From NCBI GenBank assembly GCA_009692605.1, contig SHYV01000007.1, positions 1 to 40,687 of the forward strand: DNA of 40,687 nucleotides, read 5' to 3'. Shown here piece by piece: positions 10,127 through 26,786 of this stretch. How positions within the stretch are numbered: position 1 is the first letter of the stretch; every line of letters begins with the position of its first letter. The translations under genes were made by a program, and so were the position numbers. This stretch comes from Myxococcales bacterium. GTDB lineage: Bacteria; Myxococcota_A; UBA796; SXON01. Below the pieces are notes generated by a model. That model searched no databases. It saw only the letters and a list, made by a program, of their open reading frames with translations, and had not been told where the DNA came from.

Positions 10127-10306
10127 GCGACGATCTGGAGGTTTCTCTGACCAGTCGAGACTAGGCGGGTGTACTTATAAAGAGCCATTTTTTGGCCTTG
10201 TCATATAGTCATGCGTAGCGTAGCTTGTCCCCATGTCCTCCCTCGCCACCGACTTCGAGTCTGACGGTCTCCCTCCGCGCGGTGCAGCCCCGGTGCTGGG
10301 CGTGAA
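10127..10306. promoter_or_regulatory. AT-richer divergent intergenic region upstream of the imuB-dnaE2 fusion
   Basis: This gap is visibly richer in A/T than its surroundings and contains TATAAA (10176-10181) and TATAGT (10204-10209), both plausible -10 elements without convincing -35 partners. I looked for CTGT-N8-ACAG and GAAC-N4-GTTC type LexA operators and did not find a clear one. It contains the 25-codon ORF at 10233-10310. Confidence 0.4.
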
Positions 10307-10310
10307 GTGA
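10233..10310 (+). CDS. Possible 25-aa leader peptide overlapping the fusion start
   Basis: ATG 10233 opens 25 codons (MSSLATDFESDGLPPRGAAPV, then LGVK) whose TGA overlaps the GTG start of the fusion gene (GTGA at 10307-10310). The overlap suggests translational coupling. It does not resemble ImuA or RecA and has no clear ribosome-binding site, so it could also be chance. Confidence 0.3.
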   Translation: MSSLATDFESDGLPPRGAAPVLGVK

Positions 10311-13300
10311 CCGGTTTCCTCGCCGCCTTCCTCCCCCGGTTCCGTCTGGATCGGTGTGGTATCGACACCGAGCGGCAGGCGGCTGTGCTGGTGGCGGTCG
10401 CGCAGGGGGGGGAGCGTGTGTTGACGGTGACGCCGCTCGCATACAGCGAGAACGTGCGAGTGGGGATGACGCTGGCAGAGGCTCGGAGCCACTGTCCACA
10501 GGTCGTCGTCGAACGGTTGGACGCCGAGGCGGAGGTGCGCGACCGGGAGGGGCTCGCTGCGTGCCTCAAGCGCTTCTCGCCGGATGTCCGGGTCGCTCCG
10601 CCGGACGCGGTCCTGTTGCATGGGAGAGCCGACCTGCTCGCGCCGGTCCGGCAGGCGCTCGTGGATCTGGGCCACGCGGCGCGCCTGGTGTGGGCGCCCC
10701 TGCGTGAGGTCGCGCTGGTGCTGGCCCGGCACAGTCCGCGGGACAGGGTGTTGCGGGTTGAGGACCAGAGATCGGCTGTCGGGGAACTCTCCATCAGCGT
10801 CATGGCGCGGAGGGACCCGCGCCTGTTCGGGCTCGAAGAGCACCTGCCGATCCTCGAAGTGAACGCGGTGCAGACGCTGACCTCCGCCGGTATTCGTACA
10901 CTTGCTTCGCTTGGCTCGCTGCCGGCGTCGTCGCTGACTGGACGGTTCGGTAGGCAGATCCTACCTGCCTGGGCGTTGGCCCGAGGGGCAGCGAGCTCTG
11001 GAGATGCGACAGAGAGCGTCGCAGTGCTGCCAAAGGCGCCTGCGGAGCGGCAGGTTGAGTGTGAGTTTCCTGAGCCGGTGGACAACCTCGATGCGCTGAT
11101 GTTCGTCCTGCATGGTCTCTTGCGGGACGTCGCGGCGAGCCTCGAGGAGCGGGGGGAGGCTGTCACGCGGCTCATAGTGCGCCTGCGCCTCGAGCAGGGA
11201 GCGCTGGTCGTCCCGGTGCGGCTCGGGACACCCGGCCGAAGCCCGGACCGGGTATTCAAGCTCCTCCGCCTGCGGTTCGAGCGGGTGCGGCTGGAGTCGC
11301 CCGTGGTGGCGATTGGCGTCGAGGTGGCGGAGACGTGTGTGTGGCGACCGGGGCAGGGTGGGCTGTTCGATCGCGCGGACCGTGAGGAGCCGCTCGCCGA
11401 CCTGATCGCGCGCTTGCAGGATGCGCTTGGCAAGGAGGCGGTGGTGCGGCCGGTGCTCGCCAACCGTCACCGGCCCGAGGCAGCCTGGACGGCTGTGCCG
11501 GAGGGTGACGCCGCGCCGAAGCCCATCGTGCCGCCGAAGCGCGACCCGGCGATGGCGCACGAACCCGGCGGGGAGGAGGGGCAGGCCGCCCGGCCTCGCC
11601 CCACGCTGCTCCTGCCCGAGCCGCTGCCTGTCCGGGTGATCGCGACGCCGTCCGGTCGCCCACGCGCGCTTGGGGGGCTGATCGCTCCGGCGGGCATACC
11701 GGGCGGGACCCGGGAGTGGGTCCCGGTGACAGGGGCGAACGGTCCGGAGCGGCTGAGCGGGGAGTGGTGGATGCCCGCTGGGGTTTCGAGGGACTACTGG
11801 GTTTGTACGCTGGAAGATGGTCGTATCGCTTGGGTGTACAGGGACGGTGATTCGGACCGCTGGCTCCTGCACGGGTGGTTCGATGGGGGGAGGGAGGTCC
11901 AGTCCGGACCACGCGTCCGTTCGGGGAACGGCGCGGGATCCTCGGGATCGGCTGGCGTGCGGTCCGCGGGCGCCCCGCTCTACGCCGAGCTGATCTGCCG
12001 ATCAAACTTCTCTTTCTGCGAGGGGGCGTCGTTTCCGGCGGAGCTCGTCGAGCAGGCGAAGGCGCTCGGGCTGGCAGGTCTCGCGCTCACGGACCGCGAC
12101 GGGCTGTATGGAGCGGTGCAGGCCCACCGCGCGGCGAAGAAAGCGGGGTTCCCGCTCACCCATGGCGCGTTGCTGACCGTGCGGGAGGGCGATGCGCGGC
12201 GATCGGTGGCTGTGTTGGTGCAAAACCGCAAGGGCTGGTCCAGCCTGTGTAGGCTGCTGACGGCGGGCAGGTTCGAGGGGCACGACACCGCGCTGTTCAA
12301 CGCCCCGCGGAGGGTGGACGGACCCGGCGGGACGATCCAACCAGCGGGCTCTGACGCGGGCAGTGATCCCGAGCCGCTCGGTTACCGGCCGGACAAGGTG
12401 TGGGCCGAGCTCCCGTTCGAGCGGCTGCTGTCCGGCAATGAGGGGCTCGTCGTGATGCTGCGGGGTCGCTGGCCGGGGGCTGTGGTGGGCCGGCTGCAGG
12501 ATTCGTGCGGGGATCGGCTGTACCAGGCCGTGAGCCGGAGGCTCGACCCGGATGAGGCGGGCTGGATCGAGCAGCTCCGGGCAGGGGAGGTGCCGTGCGT
12601 CGCCACCAACGACGTGCTGATGCACACACGCGAGAGGGGTCGGCTGCAGGATGTGCTGACCTGCATCCGGCTCGGTGTCACCCTGCCTAACCTGGGACAG
12701 CGCGCCCAGCCCAACACAGAGCGTGCCTTGATCGAGCCGCGACGGATGCTCGCCCGCTTCGCGGCATGGCCGGACATGATCGAGCGCACGCTGGAGATCC
12801 AGGCACGTTGCACCTTCTCCTTGGATGAGCTGAAGTACCAGTACCCGCGGGAGGTGGTCCCCGCCGGCTACACTGCCCAGCAGTGGCTCGAAGAATTGAC
12901 CCGGCGCGGCATGCACCAACGGTACCGTGGGCAGGCGCCGGAGGAGGTGAAAGCTCAGGTGGTCCATGAACTCGACATCATCGGCCGTCTGAACTTCGCC
13001 TCCTACTTCCTGACGGTGCATGACATGGTCCGCTTTGCCCGCACGCGCGACATTCTGTGCCAGGGCCGGGGGAGCGCGGCCAACTCGGCCGTCTGCTACG
13101 TGCTCGGCGTCACGCCCGTGGACCCAGCCCGTCAGAAGCTACTCTTTGAGCGGTTCATCTCGGAGGAGCGGGGTGAGCCGCCTGACATCGACATCGACTT
13201 CGAGCACGAGCGGCGCGAGGAGGTGCTGCAGTACGTCTACAACAAGTATGGACGGGACCGGGCTGCGATGGTCAACGAGGTGATCGCATGGCGCGGGAAG

Positions 13301-15376
13301 ATGGCCGTTCGCGACGTGGGGAAGGCGCTGGGCTTCGGGCCGGACGCGGTGGACCAGCTCGCGAAGACCATGGGCCACTTTGACGTCCTCTCGGCGGAGG
13401 AGGCTGGCGGCACCGGCGTCGGCACCGCGCCGCTGCAGAATGGGCCGCTGCAGAATGGGCCGCTGCAGAATGGGCCGCTGCAGAATGGGCCGGTGCACGA
13501 GCCCGCTCCGCCCCGAACATTCGAGCCCGTGCACGGCCCCGGTGGCTCAAAACCGCGCCCGCGCGACAACGCTGACGCTCCGGACCCGAAGCCGCCGGGC
13601 TGGGCGCTGCGTCTGCGCGAGGCGGGCGTGGACCTTGGTGACTCCAGCGTTGAACACCTGATCCAGCTGGCAACCCAGATCCAGGGGTTTCCGCGACACA
13701 CCTCGATCCACGTCGGTGGGTTCGTGATCTCGGATGACCCGCTGATTGACACCGCACCTATCGAGCCCGCCAGAATGGACGCGAGAACCGTGCTTCAGTG
13801 GGATAAGAACGACATCGACGATCTTGGTTTTGTGAAGGTCGACATGCTGGCGCTCGGCATGTTGACGGCGATTCGGAAGGCGTTCCGGATGATCCAGTCA
13901 TGGCACGGCCGCGTGTTGGACCTCACCAACATCCCTACAGAAGACCCGTCAGTCTACACCATGCTCGGACACGCGGACTCGATCGGGGTCTTCCAGATCG
14001 AGAGTCGGGCGCAACAGTCCATGCTCCCGCGTCTTCGCCCGCGCAACTTCTACGATCTGGTCGTTGAGACCGCGATCGTGCGGCCGGGTCCGATCCAGGG
14101 GGGCATGGTCCACCCCTATCTGCGGCGCCGCTCGGGCGAAGAGCCGATCACCTACGCAGACGAGCGTCTGCGCCCGATCCTCGAGCGGACCATGGGGGTG
14201 CCGATCTTCCAGGAGCAGGTGATGGCCATGGCGGTCGCGGTGGGCGGGTTCACGCCTGGTGAGGCCGACCAGCTCCGGCGTGCGATGGGCGCGTGGCGTA
14301 AACGCGGCGGGCTCCACGAGATTGGCGAGCGGCTCATGGACGGGATGCGCAAGAATGGGATCACCCCCGAGTACGCCGAGCAGATCTTCAAGCAGATTCA
14401 GGGGTTCGCGGAGTATGGATTTCCGGAGTCCCACGCGGCCAGCTTTGCACATCTGGTCTATGTGTCATCGTGGTTGCGTTGTCACTACCCGGCGGCGTTT
14501 ACGGCAGCGCTGATCAACAGTCAGCCGATGGGCTTCTACGCGCCGCGATCCCTGATCGCCGATTCGGAGCGGCACGGCGTGACAGCGCGAGAGGTGGACG
14601 TGACGGTGTCCTGCTGGGACTGCACGATGGAGGGAGGGGTCGGGCAAGCGCCGGACCTGCGGCTGGGCTTGCGCCTCATCCGGGGATTTCGCGTGGAGTC
14701 GGCGGAGAGGCTCGTGCAGGCACGGCGGGAGGCCGCGTTCACCTCGCTGGCGGACCTCCGTCGGCGGGCTGGGCTTGGCGAGGGTGAGCTTGGCCTTCTG
14801 GCTCGGGCCGACGCACTGCGGACGCTGCTGGGTGGGGCAGATCGTCGAGCGGCGTCCTGGGCGGTGTCAGGGCTCTGGCCCGGCCTGTTCGCGCCGCTCG
14901 GCCGCAAGGAGGAGTGTGAGCTCCCGGCGGCGGCCCCGACGGATGAGGTGCTCGATGACTACGCGAGCACTGGTCTCTCGCTGCGCCAGCACCCGGTCGG
15001 CCTGATGCGCCCCCAACTGGCAAGGAGGGGATTCACGACGCTGGGGCGATTGCCCGAAATAGCGCAGGCCACCGTAGTGCGGGTAGCTGGGCTGGTGTCC
15101 CATCGCCAGCGGCCGGCGACCGCGTCGGGCGTCGTATTCCTGACACTCGAGGATGAGACCGGGAGCGGCAACATCGTCGTGTGGCCCAAGGTATACGACC
15201 GGCAGCGTAGTCTGGTCCGTGGCGCCCAGTTGGTGGAGGTCTACGGAAAGCTGGAGCGCACCCAGGGGTCGGGTGGGCCGGATGAGGTCGGCGATGTCCT
15301 CAACGTCATCGCGTGGAACTTCGCCCCGCTGAGCCTGGGAACCGCGGTGGCGGCATCGAGCCGGGATTTTCGATGA
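10307..15376 (+). CDS. dnaE2: ImuB-DnaE2 fusion: error-prone translesion DNA polymerase
   Basis: 1689 residues, GTG start. Residues 1-390 are a Y-family-like ImuB (FLAAFLPRFRLDRC, LTVTPLAYSENVRVGMTLAEA), with a beta-clamp motif QGGLF at 350-354. Residues about 430-530 are the ImuB C-terminal module (PERLSGEWWMPAG ... YWVCTLEDGRIAWVYR ... WLLHGWFDGG). After a Gly/Ser-rich joint, DnaE2 begins at Tyr559: a PHP domain reading YAELICRSNFSF, so the H-x-H metal site is lost; polymerase aspartates D962/D964 (PDIDIDFE) and D1179 (VKVDMLALG); and an OB fold near 1590-1660. ImuB normally recruits DnaE2 to the clamp during SOS mutagenesis; here they are one chain. Residues 1043-1062 are LQNGP x4. No imuA is adjacent. 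The frame is continuous across the joint with no stop. Confidence 0.93.
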   Translation: MTGFLAAFLPRFRLDRCGIDTERQAAVLVAVAQGGERVLTVTPLAYSENVRVGMTLAEARSHCPQVVVERLDAEAEVRDREGLAACLKRFSPDVRVAPPDAVLLHGRADLLAPVRQALVDLGHAARLVWAPLREVALVLARHSPRDRVLRVEDQRSAVGELSISVMARRDPRLFGLEEHLPILEVNAVQTLTSAGIRTLASLGSLPASSLTGRFGRQILPAWALARGAASSGDATESVAVLPKAPAERQVECEFPEPVDNLDALMFVLHGLLRDVAASLEERGEAVTRLIVRLRLEQGALVVPVRLGTPGRSPDRVFKLLRLRFERVRLESPVVAIGVEVAETCVWRPGQGGLFDRADREEPLADLIARLQDALGKEAVVRPVLANRHRPEAAWTAVPEGDAAPKPIVPPKRDPAMAHEPGGEEGQAARPRPTLLLPEPLPVRVIATPSGRPRALGGLIAPAGIPGGTREWVPVTGANGPERLSGEWWMPAGVSRDYWVCTLEDGRIAWVYRDGDSDRWLLHGWFDGGREVQSGPRVRSGNGAGSSGSAGVRSAGAPLYAELICRSNFSFCEGASFPAELVEQAKALGLAGLALTDRDGLYGAVQAHRAAKKAGFPLTHGALLTVREGDARRSVAVLVQNRKGWSSLCRLLTAGRFEGHDTALFNAPRRVDGPGGTIQPAGSDAGSDPEPLGYRPDKVWAELPFERLLSGNEGLVVMLRGRWPGAVVGRLQDSCGDRLYQAVSRRLDPDEAGWIEQLRAGEVPCVATNDVLMHTRERGRLQDVLTCIRLGVTLPNLGQRAQPNTERALIEPRRMLARFAAWPDMIERTLEIQARCTFSLDELKYQYPREVVPAGYTAQQWLEELTRRGMHQRYRGQAPEEVKAQVVHELDIIGRLNFASYFLTVHDMVRFARTRDILCQGRGSAANSAVCYVLGVTPVDPARQKLLFERFISEERGEPPDIDIDFEHERREEVLQYVYNKYGRDRAAMVNEVIAWRGKMAVRDVGKALGFGPDAVDQLAKTMGHFDVLSAEEAGGTGVGTAPLQNGPLQNGPLQNGPLQNGPVHEPAPPRTFEPVHGPGGSKPRPRDNADAPDPKPPGWALRLREAGVDLGDSSVEHLIQLATQIQGFPRHTSIHVGGFVISDDPLIDTAPIEPARMDARTVLQWDKNDIDDLGFVKVDMLALGMLTAIRKAFRMIQSWHGRVLDLTNIPTEDPSVYTMLGHADSIGVFQIESRAQQSMLPRLRPRNFYDLVVETAIVRPGPIQGGMVHPYLRRRSGEEPITYADERLRPILERTMGVPIFQEQVMAMAVAVGGFTPGEADQLRRAMGAWRKRGGLHEIGERLMDGMRKNGITPEYAEQIFKQIQGFAEYGFPESHAASFAHLVYVSSWLRCHYPAAFTAALINSQPMGFYAPRSLIADSERHGVTAREVDVTVSCWDCTMEGGVGQAPDLRLGLRLIRGFRVESAERLVQARREAAFTSLADLRRRAGLGEGELGLLARADALRTLLGGADRRAASWAVSGLWPGLFAPLGRKEECELPAAAPTDEVLDDYASTGLSLRQHPVGLMRPQLARRGFTTLGRLPEIAQATVVRVAGLVSHRQRPATASGVVFLTLEDETGSGNIVVWPKVYDRQRSLVRGAQLVEVYGKLERTQGSGGPDEVGDVLNVIAWNFAPLSLGTAVAASSRDFR
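13433..13492 (+). repeat. Four perfect 15-bp tandem repeats inside dnaE2
   Basis: The unit ctgcagaatgggccg occurs four times in a row, in frame, encoding LQNGP four times (residues 1043-1062). It lies in a Pro/Gly-rich insertion between the PDIDIDFE strand and the GFPRHTSIHVGG block, a place where DnaE2 proteins vary. Copy number is likely to change by slippage without shifting the frame. Confidence 0.95.
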
Positions 15377-16932: not shown

Positions 16933-17594
16933 GTGCTTCCGCCGGCTGCCTTCACTGCGGCGATGAGCGGGAAGACATCGTCGTCAGTAAGGATGCCCTC
17001 TTTGTGCCAGGCGACGGCGCCGTCCGGCGTGAGGACGAAGGTTTGGGGCACGACCTCGGCCGCCAATCCGCAGGCTTCGAACAGCTCCGCTGGGGTTCCG
17101 GTGTACAGGACCGATGCGAAGCCGACCCCGCTGGACGCGGCGACGCTGGCGACCTTCGCGGCGACCTTTGTCGGGACCCCCGGGTGGTCGAACAGATCCC
17201 AGCTCACCCCAATGAAGTCCGCTGTAGCCCCGATGCCCGCCGCGGCGCGGACAAGCCGAGGAAGCTCGTCTACGCACGAGTCGCACCAGGTGGCCCAATG
17301 ATTCACGACCAGCGGGCGTCCGGAGGGGACCAGCGCCGCCTTGAGCCCGATCAGGTCGACGGGGACGCACCCGTCAGCTGGTCGGGCGCTCTGGGCCGGT
17401 CTGGCCGGTGCGCCGGACGTCGGGCGCTCGCCGACCGACGCTGCGAGCACAGACGCTCGCTTGTCGGCGAGCGGGGCCATGCGCTCTGTCGGGGCTCGCT
17501 CACCCGGCTGTTCGAACAGCCCATCGGTGGCGACGCGCTTGCTGACGCCGGTGAGGAGGACTCGGGCGATTCGGGTGAGGGAGGATCGGATCAC
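16929..17594 (-). CDS. TlpA-like thioredoxin-fold protein
   Basis: 221 residues, GTG start. The C-terminal ~145 residues have the TlpA/ResA thioredoxin fold: VVNHWATWCDSCVDELPRLV with redox-active C-x-x-C (CDSC), the region SWDLFDHPGVP, the cis-Pro strand EVVPQTFVLTPDG, and the closing AWHKEGIL. The first ~75 residues are Ala/Pro-rich with only a weakly hydrophobic stretch (IARVLLTGV), so export is uncertain. It follows rel/spoT by 21 bp and overlaps the nucleotidase, so the three are probably one operon. It may reduce or oxidise disulfides in exported proteins such as its neighbour; this is inference. Confidence 0.82.
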   Translation of the reverse strand: MIRSSLTRIARVLLTGVSKRVATDGLFEQPGERAPTERMAPLADKRASVLAASVGERPTSGAPARPAQSARPADGCVPVDLIGLKAALVPSGRPLVVNHWATWCDSCVDELPRLVRAAAGIGATADFIGVSWDLFDHPGVPTKVAAKVASVAASSGVGFASVLYTGTPAELFEACGLAAEVVPQTFVLTPDGAVAWHKEGILTDDDVFPLIAAVKAAGGST

Positions 17595-17615
17595 GGGCCG
17601 GGAAATAGCGCGCGG

Positions 17616-19766
17616 TCAAGCGCGCGTCACGCTCAAGACCCCCTTCACGTTGCGGAGCTTGTTCATCAGCCGGTTGAGCTGGGTGACGTCCATCACGACC
17701 ACGCCGAGCTCGGATCGCGCCTTCCGGTCGTGCGTCGCCCGGACGTCCGCCTTCCAGAGGTTGATTTTGTACGTCGCGCAGAGCCCGGTGATCTCTGCCA
17801 GCATTCCAGGGCGATCCTCGCTCTCGACCACGAGGAGCCCCTGCTGCAGCGTAGACACGCGGTCATCCCAGGCGACCGCGACCTGCCGATCGAGGTCCAA
17901 CCCGCGCACCTCGGCGCAATCCTGCTTGTGGATGGACATGCCGCGGCCGCGGGTGATGTACCCGATGATGGCTTCGCCCTTCATCGGCCGGCAGCATCGG
18001 GCGTAGTCGACCAGGATGTCGCTCTCGCCATCGACGAGGATTGGGCTGTCCACCTGCCGCCGCACTCGCTGGAGGATCGACGCCATGACCCCCGGAGCGA
18101 CGACGCTCGTCGGTGGAGTCTCGGGAATGATGACGCGGGCAGCCTCCCCGGGGGAGATTCGCCCCTCCAGCAGGTCGGTGGCCAGCGCGTCGAGATCTTT
18201 GTACCCGCGAGCGGCCAGCTTTTCGGGGACTGTCTTGTCCTCCTCTGCGCGCTTGAGCGAGCCGCCGAGCTTACGCAGCGCGCCGTCAAGGAAGTCCCTC
18301 CCGCGGCCGAGCCCGCGGTCCTCCAGCAGGTCCTTGAGTCGCTTGCGCATCTTGCCGAGCGCGCGATGGCTGGTAGCCCAGGAGAGCCAGTCCCGAGTGG
18401 GGTTGGCGTCCGCCCGGGTCAGGATCTCGACGGTGTCACCTGTCTTGATGGGGTGCCTGAGCGGCACCATCCGCCCGTTGACCTTGGCGCCGCAGGCGTG
18501 ATGCCCCACCTCGGTGTGCACGTGGTAAGCAAAATCGAGTGCGGTCGCGCCGGTGGGCAGGAGAAAAACGTCCTTGTTCGGGGTGAAGACGTGGATATTG
18601 GCCGCGAGATCGTTTCGTGCGGCCTCCATGAAGTCGGCTGGGTCCTCCACGTCCCGCGCCAATTGGATGAAGCCGCGAAGGCGGGCGATGCGCTCGAGCT
18701 CCCCGTTGCTCACGGCGAGGCGCCCGTTCTTGTAGCGCCAATGGGCGGCGATGCCGTCATCCGCGATCCGGTGCATCTCGGGCGTTCGGATCTGGACCTC
18801 CATCGGCCGCCCGTCGGGCCCGACGACGGTGGTGTGGAGGGACTGGTACCCGTTCGGCTTGGGCACCGCGATGTAGTCCTTGAACCGTCCCTCCATGGGC
18901 ATGTAGAGCAGGTGGACGAACCCCAGCGCGATGTAGCAGGACTCGCGGTCGGCGACGAGCGCGCGGAACGCCAACAGGTCGTACAGCTCGGAGACGTCCT
19001 TTCCCGACTTCCTGATCTTGTTGTGGATGCTCCAGAGGTGTTTGGTCCGCCCGGTGACCTCGGCCGCGATGCCCCTCGACGCGAGCGCCTCCTTGACGGT
19101 CACGGCAGTGGTCTCAACGTACGCAGCACGCTCGGCAGCGTCGGTCTCGAGCTTGGTTACGACATCGAGATATTCAGCTGGATAAAGGTAGCGAAAGCAC
19201 AGGTCCTCCAGCTCGCTCTTGATGGTGTCGAACCCGAGGCGCCCGACCAGCGGGGCATAGATGTCGAGCGTTTCGCGGGCGATCGAGCGTTGCTTGGCCG
19301 GCGGCTGGTGTTCGAGGGTGCGCATGTTGTGCAGGCGGTCCGCGATCTTCACGATGATGACGCGCAGGTCCTTTCCGAACGCCAACACCAGCTTCCGGAA
19401 GTTCTCTGCCTGTTCTTCGGCCTTCCCGCGATACGCCAGCTTCGAGAGTTTGGTGACCCCGTCCACCATCTCCGCGACGTTCTTTCCGTAGCGTTGCTCG
19501 ATTTGCTCCTGTGTCGCGAGCGTGTCCTCGATGGTGTCGTGGAGCAGTCCGACCGCGATGGTCTCCACGTCCATCCGCAGATCGGCGAGGATTCCAGCTA
19601 CCGCGAGCGGGTGGATGAAGTAATCGTCCCCGCTCTTGCGTTTCTGATCGCGGTGGCAGAACGCCGCGTAGGTGTACGCGTCCAGCACCAGGCCGACGTC
19701 GGCGCCTGGGGCGTAGGTCTGGATTTTGTGGATGACCTCGTCGATCACGCAGTGGTACTCATCCAC
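17616..19766 (-). CDS. Bifunctional (p)ppGpp synthetase/hydrolase, Rel/SpoT family
   Basis: 716 residues, GTG start. The HD hydrolase domain is intact: His52 (FIHPLA), His76-Asp77 (LLHDTIEDT) and Glu80-Asp81. The synthetase domain has RFKDYIAVPKPNGYQSLHTTV, with the RFKD motif of bifunctional enzymes, and EVQIRTPEMHRIADDGIAAHW. A TGS domain (IHVFTPNKDVFLLPTGATALDFAYHVHTEVG), a Zn-finger-like Cys/His segment (DYARCCRPMKGEAIIGYITRGRGMSIHKQDCAEV) and a C-terminal ACT domain follow. It makes and degrades (p)ppGpp in the stringent response. It is divergent from the lipid synthase across a 147-bp gap and heads the operon with a TlpA-like protein and a nucleotidase. Confidence 0.96.
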   Translation of the reverse strand: MDEYHCVIDEVIHKIQTYAPGADVGLVLDAYTYAAFCHRDQKRKSGDDYFIHPLAVAGILADLRMDVETIAVGLLHDTIEDTLATQEQIEQRYGKNVAEMVDGVTKLSKLAYRGKAEEQAENFRKLVLAFGKDLRVIIVKIADRLHNMRTLEHQPPAKQRSIARETLDIYAPLVGRLGFDTIKSELEDLCFRYLYPAEYLDVVTKLETDAAERAAYVETTAVTVKEALASRGIAAEVTGRTKHLWSIHNKIRKSGKDVSELYDLLAFRALVADRESCYIALGFVHLLYMPMEGRFKDYIAVPKPNGYQSLHTTVVGPDGRPMEVQIRTPEMHRIADDGIAAHWRYKNGRLAVSNGELERIARLRGFIQLARDVEDPADFMEAARNDLAANIHVFTPNKDVFLLPTGATALDFAYHVHTEVGHHACGAKVNGRMVPLRHPIKTGDTVEILTRADANPTRDWLSWATSHRALGKMRKRLKDLLEDRGLGRGRDFLDGALRKLGGSLKRAEEDKTVPEKLAARGYKDLDALATDLLEGRISPGEAARVIIPETPPTSVVAPGVMASILQRVRRQVDSPILVDGESDILVDYARCCRPMKGEAIIGYITRGRGMSIHKQDCAEVRGLDLDRQVAVAWDDRVSTLQQGLLVVESEDRPGMLAEITGLCATYKINLWKADVRATHDRKARSELGVVVMDVTQLNRLMNKLRNVKGVLSVTRA

Positions 19767-19913
19767 TCAACGTGCGGTGCTCTCCGGTCTGTGTCAAGGC
19801 TTTCGCTCCACGACCGTGACGGCACCGTGACACCCGCGCTTCGCCCGGGAGGTACAACCGGCAGCCGTGCCCGCACCCGGGCTGGCCCGATCCCGATCCG
19901 CTGGAGTCCCTGC
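19767..19913. promoter_or_regulatory. Divergent intergenic region, rel/spoT and lipid synthase
   Basis: A 147-bp gap that must hold both promoters. It contains a direct repeat of ACCGTGAC at 19813-19820 and 19824-19831 (11-bp period, about one helical turn), the spacing seen in some response-regulator operators. A possible -10 TACAAC lies at 19853-19858. The ribosome-binding site ctggag precedes the synthase ATG. No known operator is recognised. Confidence 0.4.
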
Positions 19914-22900
19914 ATGTCGACCTTCTCGCCTATCGCCGTCGTTGGCCTTGGCTGCATCATGCCCGGAGCCCTAGACGTGCCATCGTTCTGGCGGAACACA
20001 CTCGAAAAGCGGGACTTGATCACCGATATCCCGCGTACGCACTGGTTGGTGGAGGACTACTACGATCCCAACCCGAAGGCCCCAGACAAGACCTACGCCC
20101 GCCGCGGCGCTTTCCTTCCGGACGTTCCGTTCGACGCGATGGGGTTCGGCATCCCTCCGAGCACCCTCCCGGCCACCGATACCAGCCAGCTGATCGCCCT
20201 GATCGTTGCGCAGATGGTGCTCGATGACGTATCCAGACTCGGCGCGAGGACGCTTGACCTCTCTCGAACCTCGGTCATCCTCGGCGTGACCGGCGCGCAG
20301 GAGCTGCTGTCCTCGTTGGTGTCGCGGCTACAGCGCCCGGTGTGGGAGCGTTCTTTGCGGCTTTCGGGGCTCGATGAGCAGACGGTGCAGGAGGCCTGCG
20401 ACCGCATCGCGAGTCATTACGTTGGCTGGCAGGAGGCGAGCTTTCCGGGGCTGCTGGGTAACGTCGTCGCCGGTCGCATCGCGAACCGCCTGGACACCGG
20501 CGGAACCAACTGCATCACCGACGCTGCGTGCGCGAGCGCGCTCACCGCAGTGCAGACGGCGATCTACGAGCTGCAGCTCGGGCACTCGGACATGGCGATC
20601 ACCGGCGGCTGCGACACGCTGAACGACATCTTCATGCACATGTGCTTCTCGAAGACGCCCGCCCTCTCGCCTACAGGCGACTGCCGCCCGTTCTCGGATG
20701 AGGCCGACGGCACGCTGCTCGGTGAGGGGCTGGGCATGCTCGCGCTGAAGCGCCTCGAGGACGCCGAGCGCGATGACGACCGCATCTACGCCGTGATCCG
20801 CGGCCTCGGGTCCAGCTCGGACGGCCGATCGAAGAGCGTCTATGCGCCGGTGAGCGAGGGGCAGGCCAAGGCGCTGAACCGGTGCTACGAGCAGGCCGGC
20901 TACTCACCCGCCACCGTGGACATGGTCGAGGGACACGGAACGGGCACCAAAGCTGGAGACGCCGCCGAGCTGAAGGGGCTGAACCTCGTTTTCCAGGGAA
21001 CGCGCGGGGATACGCGCTGGTGCGCGCTCGGGTCGGTCAAGAGCCAGTTGGGGCATACCAAGGCCGCTGCGGGCGCGGCGGGGCTGATGAAGGTGGTGCT
21101 CGCGCTCCACCACAAGGTGATCCCCCCGACGATCAAGGTCAAGAAGCCCAACACGCTCGTAGACTGGGCAAAGAGCCCGTTTTACCTCGCGACCGAGGCG
21201 CGTCCGTGGATCACGGGGCGCGGTCACGCCCGCCGGGCTTCGGTCTCGAGCTTCGGCTTTGGGGGGACAAATTTCCACGTGACGGTCGAGGAATACCTCG
21301 GTCCGGCCACTCATCCCGAGCGCATGGACCGGTGGGGTGCCGAGATCCTTCCGTTCTCCGGCGGTACCGTCGGTGAGGTGGAGGCGGCCTTGAACGAGGC
21401 GCTCGCAGTGGCCAGAGCGCTTCCGGCGGGCGCGAGCCTGATGGACAGGGCCGTCGCGCTCCTGACCAAGCAAGTGCAGGATCGGTTCGATGCCGCCGCG
21501 TCCACGAAGCCGGCGGTGCGCCTCAGCGTGCTGGTGACCGCGACCCCAACGGGTTGGGATCTCGCCGCAAAGCTGGGCGCCGCGCTCGATGCGCTACGCG
21601 GTGGGAAGTCGATGACCCGCGGCGGCGTCTGGTTCCAGCCCGGGGTCGACGCGGGCAAGGTCGCGTTCCTCTTTCCCGGGCAGGGCAGCCAGTACCTTGA
21701 AATGGGGAAGGGCCTCGCGATGGACGTCGCGGCGGCACGGGGCGCATGGGACGAGGCAGATGCGTGCTTTCCGGAGCATGACCGTCTCTCGTTCACGGTC
21801 TTTCCTCGCCCGAGCTTCACCGACGAGGATCAGCGCTCCGCGGAGCAACAATTGGTGCGCACCGAGTGGGCCCAGCCGGCGATCGGGGTGGCGAGCGTGG
21901 CGATGCTGCGTGTGCTCGCCACCCACGGGCTGACTCCCGATGTCTCCGCAGGCCACAGCTTCGGCGAGCTCACTGCGTTGTACGCGGCGGGTGCCCTTAG
22001 TTACCCGGACTACGTCCGGGCGAGCCGCCGCCGGGGAGAGTTGATGGCCGAGGCGGCCAAGGTGCCGGGCGCGATGGCTGCGGTGGTCGCCAAACCCGCG
22101 GACGTCGCGGAAGAGCTTCGGAGCCTCGCGAAGGCGGGCATCGAGGGCGTGGTGATCGCCAACTACAACAGCCCTGAGCAGACGGTGATCGCCGGGCCGA
22201 CTGGCGCTCTCGAGGCTGCTGTGAAGCACCTCGACTCCGCCGGCTACAAGGCGGTCCGCCTCTCGGTGGCCACCGCGTTCCACTCTCCGGTGGTCGCGCC
22301 CGCCGCCGATGCGTACGCCATCTGGCTGCGCGACCTCCCCTTCGCCGAGCCCAGGTTCCCGGTGTACAGCAACGCCACGGGCGTCGTACACGGAGCCGGC
22401 CCGCTTGCCGTGGCCCTCGGGGAGCATCTCCGCAGTCCGGTGCGCTTCGTCGACGAGGTCGAGGCCATGTACAACTCCGGGGTGCGCACCTTTATCGAGG
22501 TCGGACCCTCCGCAGTTCTGACCGGTCTGGTGGGTCGCTGCCTGCGTGGGCGTGGGCACGTTGCCTTCGCGACAGACGCGCGGAATACGGACTCCCGGGT
22601 CTCGCTGCTGTCGGCGTTGGGTCACGCCGCCGCGGTGGGCCTCCCGGTACGGTTCGCTCCGCTGTGGGCGGAGCGCCAGATCTCGGCCCTGCGGCCCCCG
22701 CCCAAGATGGCGGTGATGATCAACGGGTCGAACTACGGCAAGCCCTACCCGAGTGACCAGATGCTCCCTGTGCCGCCCAACCCACCGCGGCCATCAGGCG
22801 GCGGGGGGGGCTCCGGCCTGTCTTCGCCCTCCCGGCCCCCAAACGGCGTGCGACCCATGCCTACGTCCGATCTGGTTGTTCAGGTCGCGGCGCCTCCACT

Positions 22901-25900
22901 GGCAGCGAGCCCACAAGTGAATAGGCCGCCGCCGCCCCCCCCCGTGAGCCCGATGCCGCCTTCTGATCTTTCCTGGGTCGCCGCGTTCCTTGACAGCCAG
23001 AAGCAAGCCGCGAGCGTGCATGAGGGCTTCCAGCGCTCGATGACGGACGCCCACATCGCGTTCCTGCGATCCCACGAAGAGACCTCTCGCGTGGTCGTCG
23101 CTCTGGCGGCGGGCGTCCCGGCGACCTTCGCGTCGCCCGCCTTCGCGCCTCCCGCCTTTGCTCCCTCGCCCGTCGCGGTCGTCGTCGCCCCCCCGGTGGT
23201 CCTGGCTCCGGTCGCGCTCCAGCCGGTCCCGGTGGCCGCTCGGCCCGTCGCCGCTGCCACGCACGCGGTTGCTGTCGTGGCATCCTCCGCTCAGCCTGTG
23301 GGCGTAGCGGTCTCACGCGATCTCAACGCGCTGCTTTTGGCCGTGGTCTCCGAAAAGACAGGGTACCCCGTGGAGATGTTGAACCTGAGCATGGATCTTG
23401 AGGCGGATCTCGGGGTCGACAGCATCAAGCGGGTCGAAATCCTGTCGGCGATGCGCGAACGCGAGCCGTCGCTTCCTGAGGTGGACGCCGAGACCATGGG
23501 CGCGTTGAAGACGCTCGGACAGGTGGTGTCTGCGCTTGGCGCCGCCACCGGACCGACGCTCGCCAGCGGCCGGACGGCGCCCGAGACCGCCCGAGCTCCC
23601 GGGGCGGCAGGGGGGCGCGACCTGACTGCGCTCCTTCTCTCTGTGGTCTCTGAGAAAACTGGGTACCCCGCCGAGATGCTCAACCTCGCGATGGACCTGG
23701 AAGCAGATTTGGGCGTTGACAGCATCAAGCGCGTCGAGATCCTCTCTGCGATGCGAGAGCGGGAGCCCTCGCTCCCGGAGGTCGATGCCGAGACCATGGG
23801 CGCGCTCAAGACGCTCGCGCAGGTCGTCGGTGCGTTGGGCGCCGTTTCAGTCGGCGGTGAGGCGGAGCCCGTACGCTTGGCGGCTGTGTCGCCGGGAGGC
23901 GCTGTCGGCGTGGACCTCACGGCCCTGCTGTTGGCGGTGGTCGCTGAGAAGACCGGATATCCAGCCGAGATGCTGAACCTCGGCATGGATCTGGAGGCGG
24001 ATCTCGGCGTGGACAGCATCAAGCGAGTGGAGATCCTGTCGGCGATGCGGGAGCGGCAGCCGTCGCTCCCGGAGGTTGACGCCGAGACGATGGGGGCGTT
24101 GAAGACGTTGGGTCAGGTCGTCAGCGCGCTCGGCGCGGGTTCGGGAGCCGACGCAGGGGTCGCGAACGTTGCCACGAGCAGCCCATTGCCTGCGGGCGTG
24201 GACCTCACCACCCTGCTGCTCGCCGTGGTGGCGGAGAAGACCGGGTACCCGGCAGAGATGCTGAACCTTGGCATGGATTTGGAGGCCGATCTCGGCGTGG
24301 ACAGCATCAAGCGGGTGGAGATCCTGTCGGCGATGCGGGAGCGGGAGCCCTCGCTCCCCGAGGTCGATGCCGAGACCATGGGCGCTTTGAAGACCCTCGC
24401 GCAGGTCGTGGGGGCGCTGTGCGCTGTCTCCGGTGCTCTGTCACACGAGGGGGAGAGCCGCTCCACCCTTTCCGCGGGTCCGGCGTCCTCGGCGGCGGTT
24501 GATCCTATTGGCCGCTACGAATTGCAGTTGCTCCCGCTCGGCGCCGGAACGGCCCGAACCTCCGGAGCGATGGTGGTCGTGGGTGGCGGGGCGCTGGGCG
24601 CGGCGGTGGCCGTTAAGCTCCGCGAGGCCGGCGTTGACGCGCGCGAAGGGGACCCGGACGGTGCTGCCGGTGTGCTCTTCCTCGGGGGAGTCGGTGTGCA
24701 GGCCGTTGCGGGCGATGGCGCAGGCGGCGGGGCAGGCGGCGCCGACTTCGATCTGGCCGCCTCGGTGAGTCGGGCCGCGTTTGCGGCGGCGAAGAAGGCG
24801 AGACTGGACGGCGCGGGTGGCTTTGTCACCGTGACTGCTCTGGGTGGAGATTTTGGGTGTGAAGGGACGCTGGCTGGCCCGGCCATGCTGGGCGGGCTCG
24901 CCGGGTTGACCAAGACGGTCGCGCTGGAGCATCCGGCTGCGTTCGTGCGGCACATTGATCTGGCGCCTGCATCGGTTGAGATCCAGGCCAGCTGGATCGC
25001 CCAGGAGCTGCTCCGCACCGGTCCGATCGAGGTCGGCGTGTCCACGCGTGGCCGAGTGACCCCAGGGTCCTGGCTAGCGCTCGAGGCGACGGAGTCTGCG
25101 GTGCTGCCGCTTGGGCCGTCGGATGTTGTGGTCGTGTCGGGCGGGGCCCGAGGCGTGACTGCGGCGTGCATCGTGGCGCTGGTTGAGCGCACGAAGTGCA
25201 AGGTTGTGCTGCTCGGTCGCTCCCGCATCGACGTCGCGGAAGAGCCAGAAGTGGCGGCAGCGCTGGACGAAGCGGCCTTGAAGCGCGCGCTCTTCGGGCT
25301 CGACCGGACCCTGACCCCCGCTGCGGCTGGCAAGCAGGCTGCGGCGGTCCTCGCGGCTCGCGAAGCGCGCTCGAACATTACAAGGATGAAGGCCGCTGGC
25401 GCCGCAGTTCGCTACGTCGCGGTTAACGTTGCCGATGGCAAGGCGCTGAGCGCTGTGCTCGCCGACGTGCGGGCCCAATGGGGGCCGATCACCGGCGTGG
25501 TACACGGCGCTGGTGTTATCGCCGACAAGCGGCTGGTGGAGAAGTCCACCGCCCAGTTCGACGCCGTCTACGACACGAAAATCGAAGGAGCCCGCGCCCT
25601 GCTGGAGGCCACACGCGCCGACCCGCTCAAGGTTCTGTGCTTCTTCAGCTCCGTAGCGGGCCGCGCGGGCAACATCGGCCAATGCGACTACGCGCTGGCC
25701 AACGAGGCGCTCAACAAGCTCGCCGCTGCCGAGAAGCGCGCCCGCAGCGGCAGCGCCACTCCCACCGTGGTGAAGGCGATCGGGTGGGGTCCGTGGGAGG
25801 GTGGCATGGTGACGCCCGCGCTAAAGAAGCAGTTCGAAAATCTGGGTATTCCCTGCATCCCGTTGGCGCGTGGCGCCGAGATCTTCGTGGGCGAGCTCAG

Positions 25901-26786
25901 CGGCTTCAGCGACGCCACCGAGATTGTGGTGGGTGGAGCGCCCGGTCCGCTGTCCGCGCCTCCGCCCCACCGGTCTATCGTGGTCCGGACGGTCGCGTCG
26001 TCGTCCCATTCCTACCTGCGAGACCACACCGTCGACGACCGGCCGGTCCTGCCGGTGGTGATGGCGCTGGAGTGGTTCGTGCAGCGCGCAGGCGAGCTGC
26101 GGCCCGGGATGGCGGTGACCGTGGAGGACGTCAAGGTCCTTAAGGGCGTGGTGCTCGACCACTTTGACAACGGAGGCGACCGATTCGAAGTCATCGCCAC
26201 TGCGACCGGGGCGGATCGGTGGACCATGGAGCTGCGAAGCGCGAAGGCCGTGCACTATCGGGGCGAGGTGTCGGTGCAGGCCGTCGCGTCACCACCTGGC
26301 GCCCCCGAGCGCATCGCTCACGAACAGTTTCCCCACAGCGTGAAAGAGGTCTACGACCGCATGCTGTTTCACGGCCCCGACTTTCACGTGATCCGCGGGA
26401 TCAGCGGGATGTCTGCGGGCGGGATGGAGGCCGAGCTTCACGGAGTGGTGGACGCCGCTAACTGGCCGGGAGAGGGGTGGTCGACCGACGTGGCCGCGCT
26501 CGACGGGGGGCTGCAGCTCGTCGTCCTGTTCACCCAGCTGATGACGAAGCGGGCTGCGCTTCCCACCGGGATTGGCAGCTTCCGGACGTTCGGCCTGCCC
26601 AAGGGCGGCAAGCTCTCGGCGGTGCTGTCGGCCCGCCGTACCAACGCGCACAACACGGTGACCGACGTGGCGCTGATGGACTCCGCCGGGCGGGTGGTCG
26701 CGGAGCTCCGGGGTGTGGAGGCCCACGCTCTTCCGGGCGGGACGTACCCGGTGATCGCCACACGGACCGCGGCGTTGGCCAAGTAG
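19914..26786 (+). CDS. Pfa-type (PfaA-like) iterative polyketide/lipid synthase, KS-MAT-ACP4-KR-DH
   Basis: 2290 residues from the ATG at 19914 (GGAG upstream). The ketosynthase has Cys206 (DAACAS), His341 (GHGTGT) and His381 (GHTKAAAG), with a PfaA-like MCFSKTPALSPTGDCRPFSDEADG block. A malonyl/acyl transferase follows (FPGQGSQ near 590; Ser682 in GHSFGE). A Pro/Ala/Val-rich linker leads to four acyl carrier proteins with phosphopantetheine sites Ser1170, 1270, 1368 and 1464. A ketoreductase has SGGARG at 1742 and Tyr1926 (YALAN). A C-terminal hotdog DH has His2038 (RDHTVDDRPVLP; the usual Gly is Asp). This order matches PfaA of PUFA synthases or related secondary-lipid synthases (HglE). No ER, CLF or other Pfa partner and no phosphopantetheinyl transferase is in the window. 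It probably makes a long-chain or hydroxylated fatty acid. Confidence 0.92.
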   Translation: MSTFSPIAVVGLGCIMPGALDVPSFWRNTLEKRDLITDIPRTHWLVEDYYDPNPKAPDKTYARRGAFLPDVPFDAMGFGIPPSTLPATDTSQLIALIVAQMVLDDVSRLGARTLDLSRTSVILGVTGAQELLSSLVSRLQRPVWERSLRLSGLDEQTVQEACDRIASHYVGWQEASFPGLLGNVVAGRIANRLDTGGTNCITDAACASALTAVQTAIYELQLGHSDMAITGGCDTLNDIFMHMCFSKTPALSPTGDCRPFSDEADGTLLGEGLGMLALKRLEDAERDDDRIYAVIRGLGSSSDGRSKSVYAPVSEGQAKALNRCYEQAGYSPATVDMVEGHGTGTKAGDAAELKGLNLVFQGTRGDTRWCALGSVKSQLGHTKAAAGAAGLMKVVLALHHKVIPPTIKVKKPNTLVDWAKSPFYLATEARPWITGRGHARRASVSSFGFGGTNFHVTVEEYLGPATHPERMDRWGAEILPFSGGTVGEVEAALNEALAVARALPAGASLMDRAVALLTKQVQDRFDAAASTKPAVRLSVLVTATPTGWDLAAKLGAALDALRGGKSMTRGGVWFQPGVDAGKVAFLFPGQGSQYLEMGKGLAMDVAAARGAWDEADACFPEHDRLSFTVFPRPSFTDEDQRSAEQQLVRTEWAQPAIGVASVAMLRVLATHGLTPDVSAGHSFGELTALYAAGALSYPDYVRASRRRGELMAEAAKVPGAMAAVVAKPADVAEELRSLAKAGIEGVVIANYNSPEQTVIAGPTGALEAAVKHLDSAGYKAVRLSVATAFHSPVVAPAADAYAIWLRDLPFAEPRFPVYSNATGVVHGAGPLAVALGEHLRSPVRFVDEVEAMYNSGVRTFIEVGPSAVLTGLVGRCLRGRGHVAFATDARNTDSRVSLLSALGHAAAVGLPVRFAPLWAERQISALRPPPKMAVMINGSNYGKPYPSDQMLPVPPNPPRPSGGGGGSGLSSPSRPPNGVRPMPTSDLVVQVAAPPLAASPQVNRPPPPPPVSPMPPSDLSWVAAFLDSQKQAASVHEGFQRSMTDAHIAFLRSHEETSRVVVALAAGVPATFASPAFAPPAFAPSPVAVVVAPPVVLAPVALQPVPVAARPVAAATHAVAVVASSAQPVGVAVSRDLNALLLAVVSEKTGYPVEMLNLSMDLEADLGVDSIKRVEILSAMREREPSLPEVDAETMGALKTLGQVVSALGAATGPTLASGRTAPETARAPGAAGGRDLTALLLSVVSEKTGYPAEMLNLAMDLEADLGVDSIKRVEILSAMREREPSLPEVDAETMGALKTLAQVVGALGAVSVGGEAEPVRLAAVSPGGAVGVDLTALLLAVVAEKTGYPAEMLNLGMDLEADLGVDSIKRVEILSAMRERQPSLPEVDAETMGALKTLGQVVSALGAGSGADAGVANVATSSPLPAGVDLTTLLLAVVAEKTGYPAEMLNLGMDLEADLGVDSIKRVEILSAMREREPSLPEVDAETMGALKTLAQVVGALCAVSGALSHEGESRSTLSAGPASSAAVDPIGRYELQLLPLGAGTARTSGAMVVVGGGALGAAVAVKLREAGVDAREGDPDGAAGVLFLGGVGVQAVAGDGAGGGAGGADFDLAASVSRAAFAAAKKARLDGAGGFVTVTALGGDFGCEGTLAGPAMLGGLAGLTKTVALEHPAAFVRHIDLAPASVEIQASWIAQELLRTGPIEVGVSTRGRVTPGSWLALEATESAVLPLGPSDVVVVSGGARGVTAACIVALVERTKCKVVLLGRSRIDVAEEPEVAAALDEAALKRALFGLDRTLTPAAAGKQAAAVLAAREARSNITRMKAAGAAVRYVAVNVADGKALSAVLADVRAQWGPITGVVHGAGVIADKRLVEKSTAQFDAVYDTKIEGARALLEATRADPLKVLCFFSSVAGRAGNIGQCDYALANEALNKLAAAEKRARSGSATPTVVKAIGWGPWEGGMVTPALKKQFENLGIPCIPLARGAEIFVGELSGFSDATEIVVGGAPGPLSAPPPHRSIVVRTVASSSHSYLRDHTVDDRPVLPVVMALEWFVQRAGELRPGMAVTVEDVKVLKGVVLDHFDNGGDRFEVIATATGADRWTMELRSAKAVHYRGEVSVQAVASPPGAPERIAHEQFPHSVKEVYDRMLFHGPDFHVIRGISGMSAGGMEAELHGVVDAANWPGEGWSTDVAALDGGLQLVVLFTQLMTKRAALPTGIGSFRTFGLPKGGKLSAVLSARRTNAHNTVTDVALMDSAGRVVAELRGVEAHALPGGTYPVIATRTAALAK
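23316..24425 (+). repeat. Four tandem acyl carrier protein repeats
   Basis: Four copies at 23316-23543, 23616-23843, 23910-24137 and 24198-24425, each about 76 residues with DLEADLGVDSIKRVEILSAM. The N-terminal halves pair copies 1+2 (VVSEKTGYP) and 3+4 (VVAEKTGYP). The C-terminal halves pair 1+3 (LGQVVSALGA) and 2+4 (LAQVVGAL). Copies 3 and 4 share a nearly identical stretch of about 55 bases around the phosphopantetheine site, while other parts differ at many silent positions. Confidence 0.95.

Follow-up and report, generated by a model that had tools for sequence, protein, structure and literature searches.

Does a single reading frame from a Myxococcales bacterium encode both ImuB and DnaE2 as one covalent chain, or do two neighbouring genes only appear joined? 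The frame, imuB::dnaE2, lies in a stretch of 40,687 nucleotides (contig SHYV01000007.1 of assembly GCA_009692605.1, positions 1 to 40,687 of the forward strand; hereafter the window), and an earlier note, made from the letters of this DNA alone, had proposed that the two proteins are fused here. We compared the locus with relatives, with solved structures and with the literature, and find a conserved gene fusion present in 20 of 22 genomes of the same family. Its best explanation, to which we give a probability of about 0.88, is an error-prone translesion polymerase composed of ImuA and ImuB::DnaE2, with the scaffold covalently attached; the function is predicted from sequence. Handles beginning with G, L and C denote genomes, loci and contigs.

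Architecture of the fused gene

The frame is uninterrupted from a GTG at 10307 to a stop at 15374–15376 (1,689 codons; Table 1), and its product has a calculated mass of ~184.6 kDa. Pfam domains fall on it in the order IMS (residues 28–104, E 1.4e-7), IMS_C (251–342, below cut-off), PHP, DNA_pol3_alpha, finger, HHH_6 and OB fold. The open frame, the Pfam and NCBIfam domains and an in-frame joint found family-wide all bear out the proposal that ImuB and DnaE2 share one frame.

The ImuB half belongs to the Y-family: its profile matches the DNA polymerase IV structure 7yll at 7.5e-31 in a search of solved structures, and a single-sequence search of the same half against solved structures returned nothing at E 0.01. 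Alignment of profile and structure places the catalytic Asp–Glu pair of DinB on Pro99–Asp100, so this half should be catalytically inactive, and the region that we take to hold the N-terminal catalytic Asp reads FLPRFRL (aligned by eye to the motif). The loss of ImuB catalytic residues agrees with the earlier description of a catalytically dead Y-family part. The clamp motif QGGLF lies at the residues where it had been reported and is kept across the family, as Q-x-x-L-[F/L] in 19 of 20 aligned members and as SLGLW in G007. By-eye reading of the 20-member alignment shows a conserved RecA-NT-like stretch as well. The RecA-NT motif is described in PMC6511836 and PMC11791113 (here and below, papers are cited for the portions of their text that were available); in mycobacteria it mediates ImuA' binding (PMC11791113), and mutasome function is lost when the ImuB clamp motif is mutated (PMC10421592). 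An ImuB-C profile gives one match per genome in each of the 16 family genomes that matched.

The second half scores 1,305 bits against NCBIfam PRK05672 (error-prone DNA polymerase; cut-off 939), with DnaE1 equivalog models below their cut-offs and the broad superfamily model TIGR00594 passing at 547 (cut-off 434). Both palm motifs, PDIDIDF and FVKVD, are present and align with DnaE structures, and we take the aspartates of PDxDxDF and xVKxD in DnaE2 to be catalytic. In the one stretch of PHP that was mapped, AELICRSNFS replaces the AHLHQHTQFS of the DnaE1 structure 2hpi, so the first His residues are gone. A tandem repeat coding for PLQNG units sits in a fast-evolving DnaE2 insertion and could be a variable-number repeat.

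Distribution and origin of the fusion

Relatives were sought in 58 genomes of the same genus, family and order, and then in 22 family genomes. The in-frame joint is present in 5 of 5 genus genomes and 20 of 22 family genomes, answering the suggestion that the architecture be looked for in several genomes. Re-reading the joint DNA in all 20 gave 15 complete frames; four others end at contig ends (G010, G012, G016 and G018), and in G009 (L119, near 6165) a run of G in the ImuB part, some 1.2 kb upstream of the joint, carries a frameshift that is probably an assembly indel. The earlier note had named a frameshift or assembly error at the joint, or relatives always encoding two proteins, as grounds for doubt; all 20 gene-carrying members keep the frame across the joint, and within the family no member with separate parts was found, members of other families being the ones that encode two. 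G014 and G020 (92% and 91% complete) give matches of DnaE1-like strength, that of G014 having been read, and none of DnaE2 strength, with no ImuB-C profile match in G014; loss of the system is possible in both.

The fusion appears confined to this family in the collections covered. Scanning 84,980 species genomes with six short peptide patterns gave at least 594 stretches and at least 588 relatives; among the best 80 loci, which were kept, 4 are fused (L034, L035, L036 and L074), all members of the family, and of the other 76, an ImuB match lies outside the DnaE2 frame in 53 and is absent in 23. Among 71 genomes of the class, of which 55 match at E 1e-12, no fusion was seen outside the family; non-family frames of 1,106–1,255 aa were set aside there as too short for both parts. 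Phylum-wide sampling took in three phyla, with Actinomycetota and many others outside it. In the phylum sample the ImuB-C profile matches 172 of 235 genomes and, among the matches listed, those outside the family have frames of 95–922 aa and no fusion; none was seen either in the phylum to which a Stenotrophomonas record belongs (matches in 115 of 299 genomes) or in that of a record bearing the label Planctomycetota (49 of 199). Four plasmid records carry short partial matches and phage records gave no match. A viral collection holds 15 relatives; L165, the one that was read, has both genes in one frame near 3205 with a stop between them.

Several long frames were rejected as fusions: in G064 and G031 ImuB lies in another frame, in G058 (nominal length 1564) ImuB and DnaE2 share a frame that a TGA divides, the odd long frames of G722, G437 and G644 failed on reading, and the long DnaE2 frames of L092, L093, L095, L098 and L100 hold no ImuB match. 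As a separate observation, the DnaE2 frames of L093, L095, L098 and L100 span 1,411–1,691 codons; the frames are extended at the N-terminus, and the DnaE2 match has gaps suggestive of large insertions.

In the sister-family locus L146, near 9121, imuB and dnaE2 share a frame with one TGA between them. Same-frame pairs separated by a stop also occur in other phyla (for example, L038, L039, L040 and L043). Fusion is thus a short mutational step, yet it is rarely seen. A quick DnaE2 tree of 50 rows groups the family in one clade (19 of 19 rows; SH-like approximate likelihood ratio test (SH-aLRT) 100), with Myxococcota among the nearest named rows outside the class, which probably puts the source organism close to that phylum. 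A single origin of the fusion is the simplest account.

A fast-evolving linker between constrained modules

The linker had been described as Gly/Ser-rich. Such a stretch is present at residues 539–550, but its make-up is peculiar to the source genome: the linkers of relatives differ, many being rich in Pro, Ala and Arg, and lengths range from 21 to 88 residues across 20 genomes. These linkers contain no in-frame stop in 976 codons; shuffled versions average 9.9 stops, and 0 of 5,000 shuffles were stop-free. Read in the other two frames, the real linkers have just 4 and 8 stops, and stops are therefore rare in this GC-rich DNA. Against four genus mates, the ratio of nonsynonymous to synonymous differences per site (pN/pS) is 0.22–0.34 for ImuB and 0.59–0.97 for the linker; within DnaE2 it is 0.18–0.27 for residues 558–1030, 0.34–0.84 for the insertion at 1031–1100 and 0.11–0.18 for 1101–1689. 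Such values are those of two constrained modules linked by a free tether.

imuA, promoter and neighbouring genes

Immediately upstream of the fusion is an imuA stub, whose start, MSSLA, matches the imuA start of genus mates. Neither this stub nor the separation of imuA from the fusion had been noticed in the earlier note. The segment at 10178–10273 is 82% identical over 96 nt to the promoter and 5' end of imuA on contig C45, where the relocated gene (L144, 12127–12777, − strand) has an intact core; its product matches NCBIfam ImuA at E 5e-20 and 72 bits, below the cut-off of 150. Loss of ImuA from the source genome, suspected from the stub, was rejected once this gene was found. The relocated imuA lacks its old stop, so that the frame (L144, 11302–12777, − strand) continues to 491 codons, on the strand opposite a YkuD-domain gene.

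Elsewhere in the family an ImuA gene of 201–300 residues lies before or near the fusion in 17 loci, the contigs of L122, L124 and L128 ending too soon to show it. In L034, L035 and L036 its overlap with the fusion is 4 bases; the gene stands one to three kb off in L126 and L129, and has arginine in place of the Walker A lysine in all 17 loci. An isochorismatase-family gene precedes imuA in G002, as on C45; it has no match in G003 and G004 and a weak match elsewhere in G001. On its 3' side the fusion has matching neighbours in the window and in genus mates. The promoter and 5' end shared by the stub and the C45 gene, and the gene order compared with genus mates, point to a probable history in which the promoter and the first codons were duplicated and the operon then split, imuA parting from the fusion.

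The promoter block contains an element whose pattern, GNCATTTTTTGGNNTTG (window 10184–10200), is found at a single site in each of four genus mates (reversed control, 0) and exactly twice in the source genome (79% complete), before imuA and before the fusion. A strict consensus scan for promoters and terminators found none. LexA-like boxes, CTGAAC(A/G)TACGTTCAG, precede imuA in L074, L119 and L121 and are, by our own reading, one mismatch from the Myxococcus LexA box CTRHAMRYBYGTTCAGS (PMC9705874).

Apart from these genes, the window carries at 17004–26786 (+ strand) a large multidomain synthase resembling polyunsaturated fatty acid or polyketide synthases, with ketoacyl synthase, acyltransferase, four acyl carrier protein, ketoreductase and dehydratase domains on 20004–26783.

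Table 1. Features of the fusion locus, in window coordinates
Feature	Coordinates	Strand	Basis or detail
Promoter block: element GCCATTTTTTGGCCTTG, putative -35 TTGTCA (10198–10203), 17 nt, putative -10 TAGCTT	10184..10226	+	-35/-10 by eye
imuA stub: 25-codon open reading frame starting MSSLA, TGA overlapping fusion GTG as GTGA	10233..10310	+	
imuB::dnaE2 fusion gene	10307..15376	+	1,689 aa, GTG start; open frame, domains, joint shared by relatives
ImuB half (residues 1–525): inactive Y-family region, clamp motif, RecA-NT-like motif, ImuB-C	10307..11881	+	Pfam IMS, weak IMS_C, profile against structures
Beta-clamp-binding motif QGGLF (residues 350–354)	11354..11368	+	Sequence motif; family alignment
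RecA-NT-like motif (residues about 361–379, EPLADLIARLQDALGKEAV)	11387..11443	+	By-eye reading of 20-member alignment
ImuB-C domain (residues about 437–525)	11615..11881	+	Alignment with separate ImuB proteins
Linker from ImuB-C to PHP (residues 526–558), fast-evolving	11882..11980	+	Lengths, stop-free, pN/pS
DnaE2 half (residues 559–1689): PHP, palm with PDIDIDF (959–965) and FVKVD (1175–1179), fingers, helix-hairpin-helix (HhH), OB	11981..15373	+	Pfam, NCBIfam, alignments
15-bp tandem repeat, 4.6 copies, coding PLQNG units in DnaE2 insertion	13429..13497	+	

Alternative explanations

A joint created by assembly or sequencing error in the source metagenome-assembled genome would be in keeping with the state of that assembly (3.89 Mb, 79% complete, 186 contigs) and with the likely indel in the G-run of G009. 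The same joint nevertheless recurs in 20 genomes with linkers of differing sequence and length, and the fused genomes include four separately deposited records (L034, L035, L036 and L074); an artefact was rejected on these grounds and we give it practically no weight. The gene could instead be real but decaying in the source species, imuA being reduced to the stub at 10233–10310 and its relocated copy running on past the lost stop. This is very improbable: the core of imuA on C45 is intact behind a copy of the same promoter, no stop interrupts the fusion, and pN/pS is 0.11–0.34 in both halves, the DnaE2 insertion apart.

A different possibility accepts the conserved frame and places the break in the protein, with DnaE2 also or mainly free, through internal initiation in the linker or proteolysis of it, so that the joint is no permanent tether. 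We compared the 40 codons or fewer before PHP in 20 fused and 50 unfused copies, the latter from 54 loci of which 4 had no usable start, with two genomes represented twice. The usual DnaE2 start is gone in nearly all fused genes, since an in-frame ATG occurs in 1 of 20 against 42 of 50 unfused copies, and an in-frame stop in 0 of 20 against 33 of 50. Six of the 20 have no start codon at all in this interval, start positions are not conserved among linkers, and a start with a Shine–Dalgarno-like core upstream is found in 1 of 20, although unfused copies seldom have one either (11 of 50), a weak separation. Free DnaE2 would be favoured by the length of the linker in many members, by its fast evolution and by the Shine–Dalgarno enrichment inside iRadA–PPB2 fusions of another mutasome (PMC11791011). 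We consider it unlikely and infer a single translated product. Some points do weigh against a conserved single-chain, damage-induced polymerase: 14 of 20 fused genes keep an ATG, GTG or TTG before PHP (47 of 50 unfused), so internal initiation could still occur; pS is partly saturated (0.51–0.72); the family members seen are fragmented or metagenome-assembled genomes; and no LexA-type box was recognised before the gene in the window or in the genus.

Proposed mechanism

In the covalent polymerase that we favour, the ImuB half would synthesize no DNA; QGGLF would attach it to the beta clamp and the RecA-NT-like motif to ImuA (or RecA), with the DnaE2 half acting as the error-prone polymerase and ImuA staying a separate protein. 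Clamp and ImuA binding, induction by damage and translesion synthesis are predicted by analogy with the parts. AlphaFold models find ImuB-C on the DnaE2 PHP domain to be the most extensive contact, with the ImuB thumb on the HhH region (PMC12926913). Since it is ImuB-C and PHP that the linker connects, the fusion would plausibly be a tethered, permanent form of a contact that already exists. A fixed 1:1 ratio and one assembly step fewer, as the earlier note envisaged, would fit this anatomy. Recruitment to the clamp would then be built into the polymerase and would escape control by subunit assembly.

The system is probably a further mutasome type, of two polypeptides, ImuA and a covalent ImuB::DnaE2 chain whose polymerase has taken in the Y-family scaffold as a domain; the two genes are unlinked in the source species, each with a copy of the promoter element. 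Recruitment of DnaE2 to the clamp by ImuB has been approached through two-hybrid data, co-localised foci and AlphaFold models (PMC10421592, PMC11791113 and PMC12926913). A natural fusion of ImuB-C to PHP supports the modelled contact and hints at which parts must sit adjacent, and the single-chain protein offers a handle for structures and for asking whether subunit assembly controls mutagenesis. If the tether holds in the cell, the whole family lives without assembly control of mutagenesis.

Comparison with known systems

The fusion is a variant of a known mutasome, with a natural architecture that was not found in the literature searched. A survey of over 3,000 species with complete genomes distinguishes 11 mutasome types (PMC12926913); the available portions of its text describe no ImuB–DnaE2 fusion and use 'fused' twice, for other proteins. 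Nor was such a fusion found in the literature consulted, mostly open papers and including the available portions of PMC6511836, PMC3919608, PMC3765255, PMC3901139, PMC10421592, PMC11791113, PMC5285347 and PMC12288472, so that a report in print is possible.

The ImuA–ImuB–DnaE2 mutasome of Mycobacterium, Caulobacter, Pseudomonas and Myxococcus has the same components, a RecA-like ImuA, a dead Y-family ImuB and a C-family DnaE2, and its ImuB shares the clamp motif, RecA-NT motif and ImuB-C with the fusion. It consists of three polypeptides, whereas ImuB and DnaE2 form one chain in 20 of 22 genomes of this family; and in place of the usual operon, the source genome has imuA on another contig with its own copy of the promoter. 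Other families of the class (L130, L131 and L147, and L146 in the same frame with one TGA) have homologous, abutting imuB and dnaE2 in the same order, but keep a stop codon and a separate dnaE2 start. Separate abutting genes are the probable ancestral state. The DnaE2X–iPolY–ImuB-C–RecA system resembles the fusion in arranging the same modules in differing gene architectures, and differs in direction: it splits ImuB into iPolY and ImuB-C, whereas the fusion merges these modules further, into DnaE2 (PMC12926913). The nearest precedent for ImuB::DnaE2 lies in the iRadA–PPB2 and PPB2–PolB2 fusions of the PolB2 mutasome, where an accessory subunit of an error-prone polymerase is fused to another subunit, once to the polymerase itself, although that polymerase is of the B-family and its accessory proteins are unrelated (PMC11791011).

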